Notes under the pieces: generated by a model
The model's database searches: none
What the model was told of the DNA's origin: nothing
Seen by the model: the letters and a program-made list of their open reading frames with translations, nothing else
NCBI GenBank assembly: GCA_005880175.1
Contig: VBJR01000161.1
Span: 1-27,989, forward strand
Length of the DNA: 27,989 nt
Source: Chloroflexota bacterium
GTDB taxonomy: Bacteria; Chloroflexota; Dormibacteria; Dormibacterales; Dormibacteraceae
Direction of reading: 5' to 3'
Program-made: the position numbers and the translations under genes
Part shown: positions 7,788 through 25,969 of the stretch, one piece after another
How the letters are laid out: each line of letters opens with the position of its first letter
How positions within the stretch are numbered: the first letter of the stretch is position 1

Positions 7788-7840
7788 TGCCGTATCCCGG
7801 CCACCCCATGGGCCCGCTCAGAGGTGGCGAACGTACGGCA
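7788..7840. repeat. Palindromic repeat, copy 1 (53 bp)
   Basis: Arms TGCCGTA-N5-GCCAC (7788-7804) and GTGGC-N5-TACGGCA (7824-7840) flank a 19-base loop. An element with the same arm sequence, same N5 gaps and same loop length lies at 25482-25534. Similarity continues past the right arm (AAG...CCGTTCG). It lies between the PhoD-like gene and the convergent SIMPL gene and could end both transcripts. Confidence 0.7.
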
Positions 7841-7853
7841 AGACCGTTCGCGG

Positions 7854-8531
7854 CTACAGCGCCTCCGGCTCCGACATCGTGAAGCGGGCCTCCACCCGGG
7901 CGTGGACCACCTGGACCTGCGGCTCCAGCTCGATCGGGGGCGGCTCCGGCGCCTCCCCGCCCCGCGCCCTGGCCAGGCCCACCGGGGCCGCGGCGAAGAC
8001 CTGGGGCGGCGGGTGGACGTCCGTCGTCAGGCCCACGTCGGCCAGCTCGACCAGGCCGGTCAGGTGGCCGCCGACCGCGTCCGCGTACTCCCGGGCCCGG
8101 GCCACCGCGTCCCGCGCCGCCTCCTGCCGGGCCCGGCGGTGGACCGGGCTGCTCGGCCGCAGCCGCCACCACGGGCCGTTCAACGTGGTCAGGTCGCCGT
8201 CGGCGGCCCGGGCGACCAGGTCGCCCAGGATCGCGAAGTCCACGACCGTCACGTCCAGCCGCACCGTGCCCCGGTACGCGCGCACCTGCTCGCGCCTGCC
8301 GAGCCAGCGCAGCTCGGGGTAGACGGCCAGCCCGCTGGTCTCGACCCGCTCGACGCCCTCGCCGTAGCCCTCCAGCAGGCGCCGGCACTCCTCGTTGCGC
8401 TGGGCCAGCAGCTCCAGCGCCCGCTCCCGCCCGGGGTCACGCGCCGTGACCGTGATCGCCAGCTGGACGATCTCGGGCGGCACCTCGAGGTTCGCCTCGC
8501 CCCGGACGCTGACCAGCGGTGCCGCGGACAT
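7854..8531 (-). CDS. SIMPL domain-containing protein (DUF541)
   Basis: A 225-residue SIMPL-domain protein. Family hallmarks are the N-terminal strand PLVSVRGEANLEVPPEIVQLAITV, the segment VYPELRWLGRREQVRAYRGTVRLDVTV, and the late RRARQEAARDAVARAREYADAVGG helix followed by VELADVG. Most SIMPL proteins are secreted or membrane-anchored. This one has no signal peptide, so it is likely cytoplasmic. ATG 8531 is supported by the -10 element TACGCT six bases upstream, giving a leaderless mRNA. The stop at 7854 lies 13 bases from the palindromic repeat. The family is named after an IRAK-interacting mouse protein; the bacterial members have oligomeric structures but no settled role. Confidence 0.85.
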   Translation of the reverse strand: MSAAPLVSVRGEANLEVPPEIVQLAITVTARDPGRERALELLAQRNEECRRLLEGYGEGVERVETSGLAVYPELRWLGRREQVRAYRGTVRLDVTVVDFAILGDLVARAADGDLTTLNGPWWRLRPSSPVHRRARQEAARDAVARAREYADAVGGHLTGLVELADVGLTTDVHPPPQVFAAAPVGLARARGGEAPEPPPIELEPQVQVVHARVEARFTMSEPEAL

Positions 8532-8537
8532 GCGGCC

Positions 8538-8543
8538 AGCGTA
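8538..8543 (-). promoter_or_regulatory. -10 element of the SIMPL gene
   Basis: On the minus strand TACGCT lies six bases before ATG 8531, with no Shine-Dalgarno sequence, so the mRNA is probably leaderless. Confidence 0.55.
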
Positions 8544-8589
8544 CGCGGAAACACGTACTAATCCGGGTGTTCGGCGGGACGGCGAACCC

Positions 8590-8595
8590 TACGCT
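8590..8595 (+). promoter_or_regulatory. -10 element of the small membrane protein gene
   Basis: TACGCT lies seven bases before GTG 8603. It is the same hexamer as that of the divergent SIMPL gene, 47 bases away. Confidence 0.5.
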
Positions 8596-8602
8596 GGCCC
8601 TC

Positions 8603-8890
8603 GTGCCGACCCGCAGAAGCGCCCGAAGACGTCTGGTCGCGACCATCGCCGGGTGGTGCCAGCCATCGCCCGAGCTGATCCTCCTCACCGCGACCGCGAT
8701 CAGCGCGACCAACGCGCTGGTCGCGCTCGGCATCGTGCGGCTGGCCGGTGTGCACCTCGCCGTCGTCAACATCGGGCTCGCCACCGTGCTCGGCCTCGTG
8801 GCGCGCGGCCTGCTCCCCGCCGAGCCGCCGCGTCCCAGCCCGGGCGAGCGCCGACTCCCCCACCACCGAGAGAGAGGTTCCACCTCATGA
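8603..8890 (+). CDS. Small two-helix membrane protein
   Basis: A 95-residue protein with a basic N-terminus (PTRRSARRRL), two hydrophobic segments (about residues 25-45 and 48-65) and a proline/arginine-rich tail. No family is recognised. GTG 8603 was chosen because a -10 hexamer lies seven bases before it; the frame is open further upstream, but those starts have no support. The stop codon overlaps the ATG of the next gene (ATGA), which suggests the frame is really translated. A Shine-Dalgarno GAGAGAGG for the next gene lies within its last codons. It could be an anchor or partner for that protein. Confidence 0.55.
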   Translation: MPTRRSARRRLVATIAGWCQPSPELILLTATAISATNALVALGIVRLAGVHLAVVNIGLATVLGLVARGLLPAEPPRPSPGERRLPHHRERGSTS

Positions 8891-9743: not shown

Positions 9744-12050
9744 ATGACCTCGAGGAGCGGCTCGCCGCCGCTGAGCCGTCGCGAGCGGGAGGTGGCCGTC
9801 CTCGTCGCCGAGGGGCTGACGGACCGGCAGATCGCCGAGCGCCTGTTCATCTCCGAGCGCACCGCGGAGGGCCACGTCCAGGGCATCCGGAACAAGCTCG
9901 GGTTCGACAACCGGGCCCAGGTCGCGAGCTGGGCGACCATGCAGGGCCTGGCCCCCGGCGCCGCCTCGGCCCGCGCGGGCGCCGGCCCCACGCCGCACAA
10001 CCTGCCCGTCCTCCTGACCAACTTCATCGGCCGGGAGCGCGAGCTGGGCGAGGTCCGGCGCCTGCTCCAGCGGGCCCGCCTGCTGACGGTCACCGGGCCC
10101 GGCGGCTGCGGCAAGACCCGGCTGGTCGTGGAGGCGGCGGGCGAGGTCGTGCACCGCTACCCGGACGGCGTCTGGTTCGTGGACCTCGGCTCGGTCGTCG
10201 AGCCGGACGTGGTGCCCAGGGCCGTCGCGGAGGCGCTGGGGATCGACGACCGCGAGGGCGTGGACCCGCTCCGGGCGGTCGCGGCGGAGCTGGCCGGGGC
10301 GCGGCGCCGGCGCCAGCGCCTGGTGATCCTGGACAACTGCGAGCACCTGGTCGAGCGCTGCGCCGAGACCGTCTCGGCGCTGCTGGCCGCGAGCCGGCAG
10401 CTCACGTTCGTCTGCACCAGCCGGGAGCCGCTGCACGTGCCGGGCGAGGCGACGTGGGCGCTTGGGCCGCTGTCCATGCCGGAGCCGGGGGCAGCCGTGC
10501 CGCTGGACGAGCTGCGCCGGTTCGAGGCGGTGCGCCTGTTCGTGGACCGGGCGACCCTCAGCTCTCCCGACTTCGAGCTCACCGGCGACAACGCGCCCAG
10601 CCTCCGCCTGCTGTGCGAGCGGCTCGACGGCATCCCGCTGGCGCTGGAGCTGGCGGCCGCGCACGTGGGCCTGCTGTCGTTCGACGAGCTGCTTCGCGGC
10701 CTCGAACGGCGCTTCAGCGTCCTCTGGCCGCGGACGTCGCCGGCCCGCCAGCGCACGCTGACCGCGGCGATCAGCTGGAGCTACGACCTGCTCGACGAGC
10801 CGGAGCGGGCGGCGCTCCGGCGGCTGTCCGTGTTCCGCGGCGGCTTCAGCCTGGAGGCGGCCGAGGCGGTGTGCGGCCAGCCCGACGTCTACGGGGTGCT
10901 GGCGCGGCTGGCCGACAAGTCGCTGGTCATGCCCGTGCCCCCGCGGCGCGAGCGCTACCGCTGCCTGGACATCATCCGGCGATACACGTCGGACCGGCTG
11001 GCCGAGGCCGGCGAGCTGGACGCGGTCCGCCGCCGCCACCTGGCGTTCTTCCTGGCGCTGGCCGAGCGGGCCGCCGGCGAGCTCAGCGGGCCCGGTCAGC
11101 CGGCCTGGCTGGCGCGGCTGGCCGACGAGCACGACAACCTGCGCGCCGCGCTCGAGGCCGGCCGCCAGGCGGACGTCGAGGACCGCCTGCGCCTGGTGCG
11201 GGCGCTGGAGTGGTTCTGGTCCATCCGCGGTCACCTCGGCGAGGCCCGCGTCTGGGCGGAGGAGGCGGTGAGCGCGTCCGGCGGCCTGGGGCCGACTGCC
11301 ATCCGGGCCCGGACGCTCGACGTGGCGGCCCGGGTGGCGCTGCAGCAGGGCGACACCGCCGGCGGCCGGGCCTGGCTGGAGGCGAGCCTGGCCATCTGGC
11401 GCGATCTCGGCGAGCGTCCCGGCATCCAGGCCTGCCTGACGAACCTCGGCGTCGCGGCGTCCCGGCTGGGCGACTGGCCCGCCGCCCGGGCGTACTTCAC
11501 CGAGAGCCTGGCGCAGGCGCGGGAGCTGGGCGACCAGCGCGCGATCGCGATCCTCGTGGACAACCTGGGCGTGATGGCGGCGTACCTGGACGACCACGAC
11601 ACCGCCCTGGTCCAGCTCGAGGAGGGGCTGCGGATCATGCGCACGCTGGGCGACCCGACCCGTGTGGCCAACTCCCTGGCCAACCTGGGCATGCTCGCGC
11701 TCTACCGCGGCGACGTGGCCGGGGCGGCCGGCCACTTCGGCGAGAGCCTGGCCATCGTGGAGGCGATGGACGCCCCGAAGTGCCTGGTCGAGTGCCTGGA
11801 GGGGTTCGCCTGCATCGCCGCGCGGCGCGGCCACGCGGAGCGGGCGCTGCGCCTGGCCGGGGCGGCGGCGGGCATCCGCGAGTCGATCGGCACGCCGCAG
11901 CCGCCGTGGTCGCGCCGGATCGAGGAGGGCTGGTTCGCCGAGGCCCGCCGCGCGGTCGGGCCGGCCGCCGGGCGGGCGTGGAGTGAGGGCCTGAGGCTGG
12001 CGGCGCCGGCGGCGGCGGCGCTGGCTCGCGAGGAGATCGCGCCCGTCTGA
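9744..12050 (+). CDS. Regulator with N-terminal LuxR HTH, NB-ARC-type ATPase and TPR repeats
   Basis: A 768-residue signalling protein. Residues about 9-65 are a GerE/LuxR helix-turn-helix (LSRREREVAVLVAEGLTDRQIAERLFISERTAEGHV), placed at the N-terminus, whereas most LuxR/LAL regulators carry it at the C-terminus. After a short linker, NFIGRERELGEVRRLL leads into a STAND-type ATPase: Walker A GPGGCGKT (about 118-125), Walker B RLVILDNCEHL (about 192), then LTFVCTSREPLHVPGE and GIPLALELAA. The last about 270 residues contain repeated helical pairs of TPR type (ALEASLAIWRDLGE, YFTESLAQARELGD, LEEGLRIMRTLGD, HFGESLAIVEAM). It should bind DNA when ligand binding releases the ATPase. The target genes are not evident. 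ATG 9744 gives the complete HTH. Confidence 0.88.
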   Translation: MTSRSGSPPLSRREREVAVLVAEGLTDRQIAERLFISERTAEGHVQGIRNKLGFDNRAQVASWATMQGLAPGAASARAGAGPTPHNLPVLLTNFIGRERELGEVRRLLQRARLLTVTGPGGCGKTRLVVEAAGEVVHRYPDGVWFVDLGSVVEPDVVPRAVAEALGIDDREGVDPLRAVAAELAGARRRRQRLVILDNCEHLVERCAETVSALLAASRQLTFVCTSREPLHVPGEATWALGPLSMPEPGAAVPLDELRRFEAVRLFVDRATLSSPDFELTGDNAPSLRLLCERLDGIPLALELAAAHVGLLSFDELLRGLERRFSVLWPRTSPARQRTLTAAISWSYDLLDEPERAALRRLSVFRGGFSLEAAEAVCGQPDVYGVLARLADKSLVMPVPPRRERYRCLDIIRRYTSDRLAEAGELDAVRRRHLAFFLALAERAAGELSGPGQPAWLARLADEHDNLRAALEAGRQADVEDRLRLVRALEWFWSIRGHLGEARVWAEEAVSASGGLGPTAIRARTLDVAARVALQQGDTAGGRAWLEASLAIWRDLGERPGIQACLTNLGVAASRLGDWPAARAYFTESLAQARELGDQRAIAILVDNLGVMAAYLDDHDTALVQLEEGLRIMRTLGDPTRVANSLANLGMLALYRGDVAGAAGHFGESLAIVEAMDAPKCLVECLEGFACIAARRGHAERALRLAGAAAGIRESIGTPQPPWSRRIEEGWFAEARRAVGPAAGRAWSEGLRLAAPAAAALAREEIAPV

Positions 12051-12092
12051 AAAAAAGACGCCCGGAGCGGTGGCCGAAGCCACCCTCTCCGG
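12049..12092 (-). terminator. Rho-independent terminator reading on the minus strand
   Basis: Read on the minus strand, CCGGAG (12092-12087) and GGTGGC (12084-12079) pair with GCCACC (12074-12069) and CTCCGG (12067-12062) around a TTCG tetraloop closed by C-G. GCGTC and then seven Ts (12056-12050) follow. The A-run directly follows the last codons of the LuxR/ATPase gene. The orientation fits only transcripts from the right. Confidence 0.85.
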
Positions 12093-12233
12093 ACGCCAAC
12101 GGGTCAGCTGCGCCAGGTCCGCCGAGCACCGCCGGCCAACGCTCCCCCTGCGCTGGCCAGACGGTACTCAGCGGCCTGGAACGCCGCTTTCCCTTCCCCC
12201 ACCGGCCTCCGCACGGTAGCTAAGCAGAGGCCC
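12050..12233 (-). ncRNA. Putative structured small RNA of about 185 nt
   Basis: A complete minus-strand transcription unit without a protein gene. The promoter is TTGACG (plus 12264-12269), a 17-base spacer and TTAACT (plus 12241-12246), so the RNA should begin near 12233 with GGGCC. Hairpin 1 (12232-12204) has nine pairs and an 11-base loop. Hairpin 2 (12188-12170) has six pairs, AGCGGC/GCCGCT, with a seven-base loop. Hairpin 3 (12158-12134) has nine pairs and loop AGGGGGA. A UUCG terminator with seven Ts ends it at about 12050. A purine-rich run (GGTGGGGGAAGGGAAA) links hairpins 1 and 2. I do not recognise it as 6S, SRP, RNase P, tmRNA or a known riboswitch. It could be a regulatory sRNA or an orphan structured RNA. 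Confidence 0.65.
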
Positions 12234-12240
12234 ACACACA

Positions 12241-12269
12241 AGTTAAGTAATCGGACCCCATTTCGTCAA
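12241..12269 (-). promoter_or_regulatory. Promoter of the putative small RNA
   Basis: The -35 TTGACG and -10 TTAACT are separated by exactly 17 bases. This is the best-spaced sigma-A-type promoter seen in the window. The predicted start is seven bases after the -10. Confidence 0.7.
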
Positions 12270-12278
12270 TCACCAGAC

Positions 12279-12359
12279 TTGACGCCCGCCTTGCGGGCCG
12301 AAATCGGGCCTCGACGTCACCCCGGCTTGACGTTGTGTTAAGCAGTGTGTCGCTTGACG
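12279..12359 (+). promoter_or_regulatory. Three CTTGACG boxes upstream of the methyltransferase
   Basis: CTTGACG occurs at 12278-12284, 12326-12332 and 12353-12359. None has a -10 hexamer 16-18 bases downstream, so they look more like regulator-binding repeats than -35 elements. The first forms an inverted repeat with the CGTCAA that is the sRNA -35. Confidence 0.35.
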
Positions 12360-12370
12360 TCGCTCGACAC

Positions 12371-12412
12371 CCTTGCGGCCGCGCTCGCCGCCCCGCCGCA
12401 AGGCGTTAGGCT
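12371..12412 (+). promoter_or_regulatory. Inverted repeat and -10 of the methyltransferase gene
   Basis: CCTTGCGGC (12371-12379) and GCCGCAAGG (12395-12403) form a perfect nine-base inverted repeat. The -10 TAGGCT (12407-12412) follows, eight bases before ATG 12421. The repeat covers the -35 region and could be an operator. The mRNA would be leaderless. Confidence 0.5.
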
Positions 12413-12420
12413 CCTCATCC

Positions 12421-13086
12421 ATGCCCACGTGGGACGAGCTGTACGCGGACCCGGCGCTCCTGCCCGTCCCCGACGAACCCGAGTCGTTCGTGACCCGCGC
12501 CCTGGAGGGGCTGGCCGCGCCGCGCGCCACGCCGGTGCTGGACGTCGGCTGCGGCGCGGGCCGCCATCTGCTCTGGCTCCAGCGCCACGGGTTCGCCGCG
12601 TACGGGACCGACCTCGCCCCCCACGGGCTGGCCCGCGCGCGAGACCTGCTGCGGGACGAGGGCGGCGCCGTCCGCGTGGTGCTGGCGGACATGCGCGCGC
12701 TGCCGTTCGCCGACGGCAGCTTCGGCGCGGTGATCGCGCACCACGTGCTCTATCACTGCGTCACCGCCGACGTGCGGCGGGCGATCGCGGAGGCCGGGCG
12801 CGTGCTGCGGGACGAGGGGGTGCTGGTGGGCACGCTGCTCTCGACGCGCGCCTGGAAGCACGGCGAGGGCGAGCGCCTGGAGCCCTCGACGTACCGGCAG
12901 GAGCGGGGCCCCGAGGCGGGCGTCGTGCACCACTACTGCGACGAGGTGGGAGCGCGCGAGCTGCTCGCGGACTACGACGTCGATGGCCTCGCGCTGGACG
13001 AGTTCTCCGACGACGAGGGCCACCGGCACAGTCACTGGCGGTTCGTCGCGATCTGGAGGAACCGGGGTCGCCCGAAGCGGCTGTAG
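12421..13086 (+). CDS. SAM-dependent class I methyltransferase
   Basis: A 221-residue methyltransferase of the Methyltransf_11/25 type. TPVLDVGCGAGRHLLWLQRHG is motif I (SAM binding), YGTDLAPHGLARARD carries the acidic residue that holds the ribose, and VVLADMRALPFADGSFGAVIAHHVLYH spans motifs II-III. It continues with AGRVLRDEGVLVGTLLSTR and a C-terminal substrate part that contains EPSTYRQERGPEAGVVHHYCDE. A nearby His-rich end (DDEGHRHSHWRFVAIW) is usual in the tellurite-resistance/UbiE-like subgroup. The substrate is unknown. The start ATG is backed by the -10 eight bases upstream. A palindrome and repeated CTTGACG boxes upstream suggest tight control. A 103-aa gene follows 49 bases later. 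Confidence 0.88.
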   Translation: MPTWDELYADPALLPVPDEPESFVTRALEGLAAPRATPVLDVGCGAGRHLLWLQRHGFAAYGTDLAPHGLARARDLLRDEGGAVRVVLADMRALPFADGSFGAVIAHHVLYHCVTADVRRAIAEAGRVLRDEGVLVGTLLSTRAWKHGEGERLEPSTYRQERGPEAGVVHHYCDEVGARELLADYDVDGLALDEFSDDEGHRHSHWRFVAIWRNRGRPKRL

Positions 13087-13135: not shown

Positions 13136-13447
13136 ATGCCTATGACCGATCAGCAATACGACAGGAGGCGCGCCGTTACCGCGCGCAGACGTGAGCAGGT
13201 GCGGCACCTGGTTCGCTCGGTCGGGGTCGAGCTGCCCGACGGGGACCAGGTCCCGTTCTTCGTGGAGTCCGCGCCCGGCCGGTTCCGCCGCAACCCCGCG
13301 CTGAAAGCCGTCGACGTGACGGACGATCAGCTCCGCACGCTGCAGGTGGACGCCGAGGTGCCCGCCAAGATCCCGCCCGGAGGCCTGCCCACGGACACCC
13401 TCCGGCACCTGATCGAGATCGGCCTCAAGGGCGGCGAGGACATGTGA
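13136..13447 (+). CDS. Uncharacterised 103-residue basic protein
   Basis: The protein opens with a very basic helix (QQYDRRRAVTARRREQVRHLVRSVGVEL) and continues with DGDQVPFFVESAPGRFRRNPALKAVDVTDDQLRTLQVDAEVPAKIPPGG, ending in a short helix. No family is recognised. It has no membrane segment. ATG 13136 is supported by GAGGAG six bases upstream and a -10 at 13099. A second ATG follows two codons later. Codon use matches the neighbours, so it is probably a native gene. The stop codon is directly followed by the left arm of a 17-bp hairpin shared with the convergent gene. Its basic head suggests nucleic acid or membrane contact, but this is a guess. Confidence 0.7.
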   Translation: MPMTDQQYDRRRAVTARRREQVRHLVRSVGVELPDGDQVPFFVESAPGRFRRNPALKAVDVTDDQLRTLQVDAEVPAKIPPGGLPTDTLRHLIEIGLKGGEDM

Positions 13448-13500
13448 TCTCCGGCCTCGTCCTCGGCCGCTCGCTCAGCGGATGAGGACGAGGCCGGAGA
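13448..13500. terminator. Bidirectional hairpin between convergent genes
   Basis: A perfect 17-bp stem, TCTCCGGCCTCGTCCTC (13448-13464) with its exact complement at 13484-13500. The loop contains a further five-pair stem (CCGCT/AGCGG). The right arm is also the last codons of the minus-strand membrane gene (GLVLIR). It starts directly after the plus gene's TGA. Confidence 0.75.
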
Positions 13501-13840
13501 CCGCCATCAGCACCACCCCGAGGACGATCTTCCAGCCGCCGTCGCGCACGAACGCCAGGCCCAGCAGGAACACCATCACGGGCCACCGGGCGACGAAGTC
13601 GTTCAGGACGGTGGTGAGCGTCAGGTTGGCGGCCGACTCGAACGGGATCACCGTGGCGAGCACCAGCAGCAGCACGGCGCAGACCTCGAACAGCAGGTTC
13701 CCCCTGCCCTCGCGGGCCAGCAGGTAGCCGCCGATCAGGGGGAGGAGCCCGAGCAGCCGGAGCAGGACCTGGCCGAGGTCGAGCTGCTCGAACGTCGGGA
13801 GCTGGACGGATGTTTCGAGAACGTATGCAAGATGGTTCAT
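13475..13840 (-). CDS. Four-helix membrane protein of unknown function
   Basis: A 121-residue protein with an amphipathic N-terminus (residues 1-25, SVQLPTFEQLDLGQVLLRLL) and hydrophobic segments at about 26-44, 48-66, 80-97 and 100-120. The last helix contains the final residues that are encoded in the terminator stem. ATG 13840 is preceded by GTGAGG, a reasonable ribosome site. No family is recognised. It lies downstream of the degenerate nucleotidyltransferase-like gene on the same strand, with a 77-base gap. It could be a small transporter-like or stress protein. Confidence 0.65.
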   Translation of the reverse strand: MNHLAYVLETSVQLPTFEQLDLGQVLLRLLGLLPLIGGYLLAREGRGNLLFEVCAVLLLVLATVIPFESAANLTLTTVLNDFVARWPVMVFLLGLAFVRDGGWKIVLGVVLMAVSGLVLIR

Positions 13841-22597: not shown

Positions 22598-25381
22598 ATG
22601 GCCGCCCCCGAGCTCCAGCATGCCGCCCTCGAGGAGCTCATCCAGGGCCTGAACCCGGCCCAGCGGGAGGCGGTCGATCATCTGGAGGGGCCGCTGCTCA
22701 TCTTCGCCGGCGCGGGCAGCGGCAAGACCCGCGTCCTCACGACCCGGATCGCCAACCTGATCGCCCAGCGCAAGGTCTGGCCCGACCGGTTGCTGGCCGT
22801 CACGTTCACGAACAAGGCCGCCCGGGAGATGCGCGAGCGCGTCGGCCGGCTGGTCGAGGGCACCGACCGGATGTGGGTCGGCACCTTCCACTCCACCGCC
22901 GTGCGGATGCTCCGGCGCGACGCCGAGCGGATGGGTCTGCCCCGCTCGTTCACCATCTTCGACGACGACGACAGCCGGGCCGCCCTCAAGCGGGTCCTCG
23001 ACGAGCTCCGGCTGGATCCGAAGAAGTACCCGCCGGCCCTGCTCGCCAACCAGATCTCCCGGGCCAAGAACGAGCTGCTCGGCCCCGACCAGTTCCCCGA
23101 CCGCACGTACCAGGACGAGATCGTCCGCCGCTGCTACGAGCGGTACGAGCTGGTCCTCCAGCGCTCGGGAGGCCTCGACTTCGACGACCTGATCGTCAAG
23201 GTGGTCCGGCTCCTGCAGACGGACGAGGAGGCGCGCGATCGCTGGCGCGACCGGTTCCGCCACGTGCTCGTGGACGAGTACCAGGACACGAACCACGCGC
23301 AGTACATGCTGGTGAAGCTCGTCGCCGAGGCCCATCGCAACCTCGCGGTGGTCGGCGACGACGACCAGTGCCTGGTCGCCGGCACGCCCGTCACGATGGC
23401 CGACGGCACGACCCGGCCGATCGAGGCCGTGCGGCCCGGCGACCTGGTCCGCTCCGGCTTCGGCAGCGGCGAGTTCCGGCCCGCGCGCGTGCTGCGCGCC
23501 CACCGGAGCTGGTCCCGGGGATCCGGCGTCGCGATCACCACGCGCGCCGGCCGCCGGGTCGTCAGCACGCCCGAGCACACGCACTTCGCCGGTCCCCGGC
23601 ACGCGGCGCCGCTGACCGCCCCCGCCGTCGTCGAGCTGTGCGGCGCGCGCCTGCGGGGCGCCCACCGGCTCCACGTGGGCGGCCGCTACGCCGAGGCGGA
23701 CGAGTTCGGCGACCTGCTCCAGCGCGCCGCCGCCGCGCCCGCCGTGGCGCTCCAGGCCCGCCTGGCCCCGGACGAGCCGCTGCCGTTCTCACCCGCCAGC
23801 GACGTCCGCCCCGGCATGGCCATGTTCACCGCGGACGGCGGCTACGACGTCGTCGAGCGGGCCGAGCGCGTGGACCTCGACGAGTGGGTCTACGACATCG
23901 ACGTGGACCGCACGCACAACTTCGTCGCGGGCGGGCTGGTGACGCACAACTCCGTCTACGGGTGGCGGGGCGCCGACGTCCGCAACATCCTGGACTTCAA
24001 GAAGGACTACCCGGAGGCCACGGTCGTCCACCTGGAGCAGAACTACCGCTCGACGCAGGCGATCCTGGACGCGGCGTACCACGTCATCCGCCACAACGCG
24101 GAGCGGGCCCCGAAACGGCTCTGGACCGACCGCGTGGGCGGCGAGCGGGTGAGCGCGGCGCAGCTCTACAACGAGGTCGAGGAAGCCGAGTACGTGGCGG
24201 ACGAGATCGACCGGCTCCGCCGCGTCGAGGGCCGCCGCTACAGCGACTTCGCCGTCCTCTACCGCGTCAACGCCCAGTCGCGGTCGTTCGAGGACGTGTT
24301 CGGCCGCCGCCGCATCCCGTACCGGCTGGTCGGGGGCGTGCGGTTCTGGGAGCGGCGCGAGGTCAAGGACCTGCTCGCGTACCTCCGCGTGGTGCAGAAC
24401 CCGGCCGACGCGGTCAGCTTCTCCCGCATCGTCAACGTGCCCCGGCGCAAGATCGGGCCGGTCACGGTCGACGCGGTGGTGACCGCCGCGACCGAGCGCG
24501 GCGCGACCATCCTGGACGTGCTGGCGAGCATCGAGCCCGTCCCGGGCGTGCCCCGGGCCGCGCAGGCGCCGCTGGAGCGGTTCCGGCAGCAGCTCGAGTC
24601 GCTGCGCGCGACGGTCGGCGCGCTGCCGCCGAGCGAGCTCATCGACCACGTGATCGAGGTCACCGGCCTGGAGGGGCACTACGCGGACGGCACCCCGCAG
24701 GGCGACGCGCGGATCGAGAACCTGCAGGAGCTGCGCGGCCTGGCCCAGGAGTTCGACACGCACGAAGACCTGGCCGAGGCGCTGGAGCTGTTCCTGACCG
24801 AGGTGACGCTGCGCTCGGACGTGGACGCGTACGCGGAGGACGACGACGGCGTCACGCTCATCACGCTGCACATGGTCAAGGGCCTGGAGTTCCCGGTCGT
24901 CTTCCTGGTCGGCGTCGAGGAGAACCTGCTGCCCCACCGCCGCGCCGTCGAGGACGAGCGCGAGCTGCCCGAGGAGCGGCGCCTGTGCTACGTGGGCATC
25001 ACCCGGGCCCAGGACCGCCTCTACCTGACGTGCGCGTTCCGCCGGCACCTGTACGGGCAGGCGCAGCCGGGCTTCCCGAGCCGCTTCCTGACGGAGATCC
25101 CGCAGACGCTGCTGGCCGCGCCCCGGCGCGGTGCGGCGCCGGTGGCGCCGCCGCGCGGCGGCTACCGCGAGCGGCTGGTCGAGCGCCAGGTCCAGGCGGC
25201 GCCGGCGGGCCCGCCGGTGCAGCGGTACCAGGAGGGCGACCGCGTCATCCACCCCAAGTTCGGCCACGGGGTGGTGATGAAGAGCACCCTCACGCGCACG
25301 GACGAGGAGCTGGTCGTGCGCTTCGACACCACCGGCGTCAAGATCCTCAACGGCACGATCGCGCCGCTGACGAAGGCGTAG
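22598..25381 (+). CDS. pcrA: PcrA/UvrD superfamily 1 DNA helicase carrying a mini-intein
   Basis: A 927-residue precursor; 733 residues after splicing. Helicase motifs appear in order: AGAGSGKT (motif I, residues 37-44), TFTNKAAREM (Ia), GTFHSTAVRML, HVLVDEYQDTN (II), VVGDDDQ then, after the intein, SVYGWRGAD (III), LEQNYRST (IV), LITLHMVKGLEFPVVF (V) and EERRLCYVGITRAQDRLYL (VI). The end, GDRVIHPKFGHGVVM, is the PcrA/UvrD C-terminal Tudor-like segment. It unwinds DNA from 3' to 5' in repair and replication restart. ATG 22598 is preceded by a -10 nine bases upstream. The intein removes no helicase residue. The gene is followed by a non-coding region with a large palindrome. Confidence 0.95.
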   Translation: MAAPELQHAALEELIQGLNPAQREAVDHLEGPLLIFAGAGSGKTRVLTTRIANLIAQRKVWPDRLLAVTFTNKAAREMRERVGRLVEGTDRMWVGTFHSTAVRMLRRDAERMGLPRSFTIFDDDDSRAALKRVLDELRLDPKKYPPALLANQISRAKNELLGPDQFPDRTYQDEIVRRCYERYELVLQRSGGLDFDDLIVKVVRLLQTDEEARDRWRDRFRHVLVDEYQDTNHAQYMLVKLVAEAHRNLAVVGDDDQCLVAGTPVTMADGTTRPIEAVRPGDLVRSGFGSGEFRPARVLRAHRSWSRGSGVAITTRAGRRVVSTPEHTHFAGPRHAAPLTAPAVVELCGARLRGAHRLHVGGRYAEADEFGDLLQRAAAAPAVALQARLAPDEPLPFSPASDVRPGMAMFTADGGYDVVERAERVDLDEWVYDIDVDRTHNFVAGGLVTHNSVYGWRGADVRNILDFKKDYPEATVVHLEQNYRSTQAILDAAYHVIRHNAERAPKRLWTDRVGGERVSAAQLYNEVEEAEYVADEIDRLRRVEGRRYSDFAVLYRVNAQSRSFEDVFGRRRIPYRLVGGVRFWERREVKDLLAYLRVVQNPADAVSFSRIVNVPRRKIGPVTVDAVVTAATERGATILDVLASIEPVPGVPRAAQAPLERFRQQLESLRATVGALPPSELIDHVIEVTGLEGHYADGTPQGDARIENLQELRGLAQEFDTHEDLAEALELFLTEVTLRSDVDAYAEDDDGVTLITLHMVKGLEFPVVFLVGVEENLLPHRRAVEDERELPEERRLCYVGITRAQDRLYLTCAFRRHLYGQAQPGFPSRFLTEIPQTLLAAPRRGAAPVAPPRGGYRERLVERQVQAAPAGPPVQRYQEGDRVIHPKFGHGVVMKSTLTRTDEELVVRFDTTGVKILNGTIAPLTKA
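23369..23950 (+). other. Mini-intein in helicase motif III (194 residues)
   Basis: In-frame with the helicase, residues 258-451. It begins with Cys at the block A start (CLVAGTPVTMADGTTRPIEA, then VRPGDLV). Block B is VVSTPEHTHF with the TxxH motif. Blocks F and G are VYDIDVDRTHNFVAGGLVTHN, ending in His-Asn, and the next extein residue is Ser. The splice points split GDDDQ|SVYGWRGA exactly, restoring motif III. At 194 residues, with about 100 between blocks B and F, there is no room for a LAGLIDADG endonuclease and no such motif is seen. It should splice as a mini-intein. Confidence 0.93.
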
Positions 25382-25420
25382 CCCGCTGCCTTCGGGCCGG
25401 GAGGGGAGGTCGTACGAAGG
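25381..25420 (+). terminator. Weak hairpins after the helicase gene
   Basis: GCCCG/CGGGC (25381-25385/25393-25397) and CCTTCG/CGAAGG (25389-25394/25415-25420) are alternative short stems directly after the stop. Neither has a T-run. Confidence 0.3.
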
Positions 25421-25429
25421 GGACGGCCA

Positions 25430-25586
25430 ATGGGCTAGCACTATGCTGCCTTTGGGTGGCAAGTGGTTCACGACAGTGCCTTGCCGTACGTCTGCCACCC
25501 CTCAGCCCGGTCGAGACGTGGCGCCCGTACGGCAAGGTCCGTTCGTGGCATAGTTGTCACCCAGAGGTGGTCCGATGCTAGCCCAC
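25430..25586. repeat. 157-bp imperfect palindrome containing palindromic repeat copy 2
   Basis: Left arm 25430-25498 and right arm 25518-25586 (69 bases each) align without gaps to each other as inverted copies, with about 47 of 69 positions paired. The best parts are the outer TGGGCTAGC/GCTAGCCCA, a CTnTGGGTG block, and the inner TTGCCGTAC/GTACGGCAA. The 19-base loop is CCCTCAGCCCGGTCGAGAC. The inner 53 bases (25482-25534) match copy 1 at 7788-7840 in arms, gaps and loop length. It may be a folded RNA or a small non-autonomous mobile element. Confidence 0.7.
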
Positions 25587-25848
25587 CGGAGGGCCCCCTT
25601 CGTTGAACTCCCACACCCGACGCGGGGGCGCCTTCCCGCGTGCCAGGCCGATGGCCAGGCAGCCACTCCGCCAGGCCCGCAAACAGGGACTCGTCGGATG
25701 TCCGAATCGACACACAATCGCAGCCGCTGTCCTCCTGCACTCGATGCGCAACTGGACCACTCGTGGTGCTCGCTGACGTGGGCCCTACTATGTTCCCCAA
25801 CCGATGAATACGATCGTTTCTTCGTTGCTTCACCGTATGACTACGTGT
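25587..25848. other. Intergenic region without a recognisable gene
   Basis: The stretch from the palindrome to the next promoter holds no convincing protein gene; the open frames have no ribosome sites and no family features. GC falls from over 70% to about 50% near 25740-25860. A minus-strand segment at 25590-25680 starts like a tRNA but fails at the T-stem. Small inverted repeats occur (TCGGA-TG-TCCGA near 25694; CCAC-TC-GTGG near 25757). Confidence 0.5.
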
Positions 25849-25863
25849 CGTCAATAGTTGACG
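25849..25863. promoter_or_regulatory. 15-bp palindrome upstream of the NRPS-linked operon
   Basis: CGTCAATAGTTGACG (six-base arms, TAG centre) ends 11 bases before the -35. TTGACG also recurs at 25947-25952 in the leader. Placement suggests an operator. Confidence 0.45.
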
Positions 25864-25874
25864 TTGTAATGCCC

Positions 25875-25904
25875 TTGTCGGCAACCTCCGCCCTCTGCTA
25901 GACT
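25875..25904 (+). promoter_or_regulatory. Promoter of the DNA-binding/NRPS operon
   Basis: TTGTCG (25875-25880), 18 bases, TAGACT (25899-25904). The predicted start lies near 25911. Confidence 0.6.
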
Positions 25905-25927
25905 GCCGCTCGATCGTTGGTGGGGTA

Positions 25928-25943
25928 GCAGCAGCGCTGCTGC
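25928..25943. promoter_or_regulatory. 16-bp perfect palindrome in the leader
   Basis: GCAGCAGCGCTGCTGC is its own complement. It lies about 20 bases after the predicted transcription start and 26 before the ATG, suited to a repressor site or an RNA hairpin. Confidence 0.4.
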
Positions 25944-25969
25944 GGATTGACGAAGAGAAACAGGCGTTC

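Follow-up and report, generated by a model that had tools for sequence, protein, structure and literature searches.

A candidate small-RNA gene between a LuxR-type regulator gene and a methyltransferase gene in a very GC-rich genome, most likely of Candidatus Dormibacterota

The window, meaning the whole stretch of DNA analysed here, is 27,989 bases long with a GC content of 74%, and its host most likely belongs to Ca. Dormibacterota. This lineage corresponds to the class Ca. Dormibacteria within Chloroflexota, and soil is the only habitat found for it in the account of PMC10608941. The features of interest lie between two plus-strand genes, one for a LuxR-type regulator (luxR) and one for a methyltransferase, with a putative small RNA (sRNA) gene on the minus strand (Table 1). 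The U7 tract of the sRNA shares its last base with the luxR stop codon (12048-12050, plus strand). LuxR and methyltransferase family members are found on equal-sized contigs in four cases (22245, 110514, 42564, 7835), and these equal sizes by themselves suggest that the neighbourhood of luxR and the methyltransferase gene is conserved.

Table 1. Annotated and predicted features of the locus, with positions in the window
Feature	Position	Strand	Remarks
LuxR/GerE-AAA-TPR regulator gene (luxR)	9744..12050	+	ATG 9744, stop 12048-12050; convergent neighbour of the sRNA gene
Predicted small RNA, ~185 nt	12050..12234	-	start ~12234 inferred from the -10 element
U7 tract	12050..12056	-	T7 in the sequence
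Terminator stem, 11+6 bp, UUCG loop 12078-12075	12057..12097	-	predicted fold
Long rod, apical loop AGGGGGA 12149-12143, 29-bp core 12179-12113	12101..12193	-	predicted fold
Purine-rich tract GGUGGGGGAAGGGAAA	12188..12203	-	12203-12194 unpaired linker in the lowest-energy fold; remainder in the rod base
5' hairpin, 9 bp, 11-nt loop UUAGCUACCGU	12204..12232	-	predicted fold
-10 element	12240..12246	-	TTAACT 12246-12241 (spacer 17) or TAACTT 12245-12240 (spacer 18)
-35 element TTGACG	12264..12269	-	sequence match
Four TTGACG/CGTCAA hexamers, clustered	12264..12359 (12264, 12279, 12327, 12354)		from the sRNA promoter towards the methyltransferase gene
Class I SAM-dependent methyltransferase gene	12421..13086	+	divergent neighbour of the sRNA gene

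Among the predicted transcription signals, the terminator is stronger than the promoter. The stem capped by a C(TTCG)G loop and followed by seven Ts that the earlier note had described is present (stem 12097-12057, T7 12056-12050), and the T7 tract is the sole run of at least five A or T in the window. At -31 kcal/mol, the hairpin is the strongest among the 28 hairpin candidates that precede T-rich stretches in a scan of the window. Dinucleotide shuffling of the window never produced seven or more consecutive Ts in 200 trials, nor six or more Ts preceded by 42 nt with a fold of -25 kcal/mol or lower, again in 200 trials; shuffling 12050-12420 alone yields a T7 in 20 of 1000 cases. The sRNA strand thus carries an intrinsic terminator, as predicted from sequence, which is a criterion for an independent trans-encoded sRNA. 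An anti-terminator arrangement was considered and rejected: the terminator arm does have complementary segments, but pairing of equal strength arises in 20% of 500 shuffles.

The putative promoter looks like a sigma-70 site with a weak -10 element. Its proposed parts, a -35 TTGACG and a -10 TTAACT separated by 17 nt, are found on the minus strand at 12269-12264 and 12246-12241. One base off TTAACT, TAACTT satisfies TANNNT at a spacer of 18 nt, and either choice agrees with TATAAT at only three of six positions. The pattern TTGAC-N17-20-TANNNT matches nowhere else in the 27,989 bases; it turns up in 6.5% of 200 whole-window shuffles and, when 12051-12420 alone is shuffled, in 7 of 1000 cases. 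No promoter emerges from a stricter scan. The TTGACG/CGTCAA hexamer recurs 15 times in the window, with four copies clustered next to the promoter and three more at 25849-25952, and the cluster beside the promoter is possibly a shared operator. Immediately 5' of the methyltransferase start, an inverted repeat, CCTTGCGGC...GCCGCAAGG at 12371-12403, could be an operator or a terminator.

The locus is predicted to fold strongly on either strand. The minus strand (186 nt) reaches -126.8 kcal/mol (z -7.6) and the plus strand -94.3 kcal/mol (z -6.05), in each case with none of 200 shuffles as low. In a scan of 796 segments, with 24 shuffles each, overlapping minus-strand segments of the locus rank second and fourth. 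Folding alone proves little, because three other spots in the window also stand out, at 25411-25596, 13371-13626 and 8541-8726 (best z -7.6, -6.4 and -5.1), and the first of these outranks the sRNA locus. Three hairpins had been described at 12134-12232; they form only when 12134-12235 is folded alone, but in the full-length RNA hairpins two and three merge into a single rod in which 12193-12150 pairs with 12101-12142 (-125.9 kcal/mol, against -86.2 if 12100-12133 is kept unpaired). The 5' loop, the linker UGGGGG (12201-12196), the AGGGGGA loop, the UUCG loop and the U-tract are each exposed with a probability above 0.7. A G-quadruplex in the linker is possible: once such structures are permitted in the calculation, the optimal fold includes one there, at a small gain (-129.3 vs -125.9 kcal/mol).

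Other structured elements of the window deserve mention in their own right. The 215 nt right after uvrD (25398-25612) form a single long hairpin (-128 kcal/mol, segment z -7.6) whose arms are 67% matched over 201 nt. A partial copy of 69 nt, 78% identical, separates two convergent genes at 7788-7854, and the two might represent a dispersed palindromic element; plasmids contain no match to the palindrome at 25398-25612. The UvrD/PcrA helicase encoded at 22598-25381 carries an intein (PF14890, residues 298-451), and its relatives include proteins with an intein (about 925 aa) and without one (about 733 aa). The helicase shares 91% identity, in the part compared, with a Candidatus Dormibacteraeota protein (P0248); among the 120 UvrD matches listed, all 11 that carry an organism label, including one from Ca. 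Nephthysia bennettiae, belong to the Dormibacteraeota lineage. A further hairpin, at 13449-13499, has perfect 16-nt arms (13449-13464 and 13484-13499) and no U-tract. It sits between a plus-strand frame ending at 13447 and a minus-strand frame ending at 13475, overlaps the 3' end of the latter, and is possibly a shared terminator. The sRNA region itself has no second copy in the window, and the idea of a DNA repeat was dropped (the closest match covers 31 nt at 81%, E 0.004).

Comparison with known RNAs places the candidate outside the described families. Rfam yields no match at gathering over the whole window, in agreement with the claim that no recognised family is present, and a search of 11950-12450 up to E 10 returns four matches, all far under their cut-offs and none of them 6S RNA (RF00013). 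6S RNA is defined by paired ends and a large central bubble. The candidate has in common with 6S RNA and Ms1 RNA a length near 185 nt and a long rod, but its predicted fold has unpaired ends and no large central bubble; together with the Rfam result, the unpaired ends bear out the earlier decision not to call it 6S RNA. CsrA-titrating RNAs of the CsrB/RsmY type carry many GGA motifs in hairpin loops, whereas the candidate, with six GGA motifs against 3.4 expected, has just one in an apical loop by position. Independent intergenic bacterial sRNAs have their own promoter, measure 50-300 nt, are structured, end in a U-tract terminator and lie between protein genes. The candidate resembles them in its promoter-like site, size, structure, U-tract terminator and position between protein genes, and differs in falling outside known families, in its G-rich exposed parts and in having a transcript predicted computationally from the DNA. 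Ms1 RNA is flanked, as described in PMC9130861, by HAD-hydrolase and oxidoreductase and related genes; the candidate is instead flanked by the LuxR regulator and methyltransferase genes, with a HAD gene about 4 kb off. The C-rich-loop sRNAs, namely Xanthomonas sX13, S. aureus RNAIII and H. pylori HPnc5490, are, as portrayed in PMC3771888, highly structured with a homopolymer tract in an apical loop, as is the candidate. They carry C4 or C5 in these loops, whereas the minus-strand loop AGGGGGA carries G5, and UCCCCCU, the motif given for loop 3 of sX13 and for HPnc5490, occurs only in its complement (PMC3771888).

Relatives of the locus were also sought. Searches of genomes, viruses, plasmids and phages reached no homologous luxR-methyltransferase locus. 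A scan of genome contigs with 30 aligned methyltransferases found 56 loci, at most 42% identical over more than 100 residues, and shorter segments with identities up to 62% over 37 residues. Viral contigs contain one methyltransferase locus, at 28% identity, and none of 13 stretches searched with LuxR qualifies; plasmids and phages gave no match. UvrD searches of 2 and of 21 genomes, meant to locate a close phylum, found none. In Actinomycetota, the methyltransferase search gave 0 of 296 at E 1e-25, run without a positive control, and 9 of 396 had matches to the sRNA DNA, spanning 22-46 nt and taken as chance. At E 1e-15, two further phyla gave only distant matches (3 of 199 and 14 of 100); among those listed for the second, the eleven with a locus or full span are at most 42% identical. 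A narrow literature search for small RNAs in Dormibacter turned up no papers.

The independent minus-strand sRNA gene put forward in the earlier note is the best reading of the locus because of the promoter, the terminator, the fold and the absent coding signal, with the weak -10 element counting against it. We hold with moderate confidence that a stand-alone intergenic sRNA gene occupies the minus strand between about 12234 and 12050 and that its product would pair in trans through its exposed G-rich parts. The gene is probably real, belongs to a well-known type and is hitherto undescribed.

The leading alternative is antisense control of luxR, in which the RNA would act in cis against the luxR 3' UTR and limit luxR mRNA by transcription collision or by RNase III cleavage of the duplex. 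By position, the RNA is fully complementary to any luxR mRNA reaching past the stop codon, which the U-tract touches, and the neighbourhood that the four pairs of equal-sized contigs suggest to be kept favours this view. It is nonetheless unlikely; the luxR message may extend no further than the first hairpin (12056-12100, -23.9 kcal/mol on the plus strand), leaving little overlap with the antisense RNA. Somewhat less can be said for a bare terminator accompanied by a stray antisense promoter, where the hairpin would end luxR on the plus strand and block minus-strand transcription into luxR, the rest being functionless. The weak sRNA promoter fits a stray one, and folded gene ends are not rare in the window, since a hairpin without a U-tract also separates the convergent frames at 13449-13499. 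Against it, the U7 tract is unique in the window and serves the minus strand only, and the rod with its 29-bp core and the 5' hairpin would be superfluous for a mere terminator, so this account is improbable.

The strand is assigned from the promoter-like site and the U-tract, which both face minus. The minus-plus energy difference of -31.6 kcal/mol lies below all 300 shuffles (mean -20.4, z -2.6) and favours the minus strand weakly, as composition alone gives -20.4. A bias in G-U pairs (seven on the minus strand, none on the plus strand) was discarded as a strand argument: base composition explains it, as 262 of 300 shuffles differ by at least 7 and shuffled sequences average 12.3 such pairs on minus vs 2.8 on plus. 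A functional RNA read from the plus strand, an sRNA from the luxR 3' UTR with the loop UCCCCCU and the linker UUUCCCUUCCCCCACC, would resemble sX13 and HPnc5490, for which this loop motif is reported (loop 3 in sX13; PMC3771888), and would draw on a plus-strand fold that none of its shuffles equals. The plus strand, however, has neither a T run nor a TTGAC-type promoter in the window scan, and its fold is weaker by 32 kcal/mol, of which composition alone accounts for about 20, as it does for the missing G-U pairs; we regard such an RNA as distinctly improbable. The minus-strand transcript might also be a short mRNA, with GGAGG in the 5' hairpin as a sequestered ribosome-binding site for a 32-codon open reading frame (ORF; GTG 12202, end 12104). 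GGAGG stands 3 nt ahead of the GTG, and the ORF stops right before the terminator. At -0.73 bits per codon, however, the ORF scores under all 160 gene pieces of the same size (mean 0.60), a score that 42% of 604 off-frame pieces (mean -1.04) reach, and its GC content is flat across codon positions (0.75/0.72/0.75), leaving this reading very little credence; the codon score speaks against a small protein from the ORF. The minus-strand frame of 45 codons that includes this ORF scores -0.90 bits per codon and shows no coding signal, which upholds the earlier claim that no protein gene lies on that strand here.

Under the preferred reading of an independent sRNA gene, minus-strand transcription would start at about 12234 and end at the U-tract terminator at 12050. 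The 5' hairpin, the long rod and the terminator would keep the RNA rigid, and the rod is of a kind that RNase III could cut. The linker and the AGGGGGA loop, both G-rich and predicted to be exposed, might act in trans by base-pairing with mRNAs or other sRNAs that contain C/U-rich stretches, and such pairing would be the most likely mode of action. The targeting idea of the earlier note found no support among 16 chosen translation starts of the window, where the pairing of a 26-nt probe around the linker does not exceed that of its shuffled versions; the largest excess, at 8531, is -30.0 vs -26.8 (sd 2.5), and none of the 16 starts stands out. G-rich pairing parts are unusual. The preferred reading is weakened by this feature, by the weak -10 element, by the three other strong folds, by the lack of a homolog in the searches and by the null result with the probe.

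A bolder and rather doubtful extension is that the candidate founds a Dormibacterota sRNA family mirroring the C-rich-loop sRNAs, with a G5 loop and a G-quadruplex-capable linker that would sequester C-rich sRNAs or capture C/U-rich leaders. If real, the gene would encode an sRNA in Ca. Dormibacterota, an uncultured soil lineage. Its U-tract terminator marks this non-coding unit alone, because the window contains no other A or T run of at least five bases, which hints that sRNA genes may be found cheaply in very GC-rich uncultured genomes.
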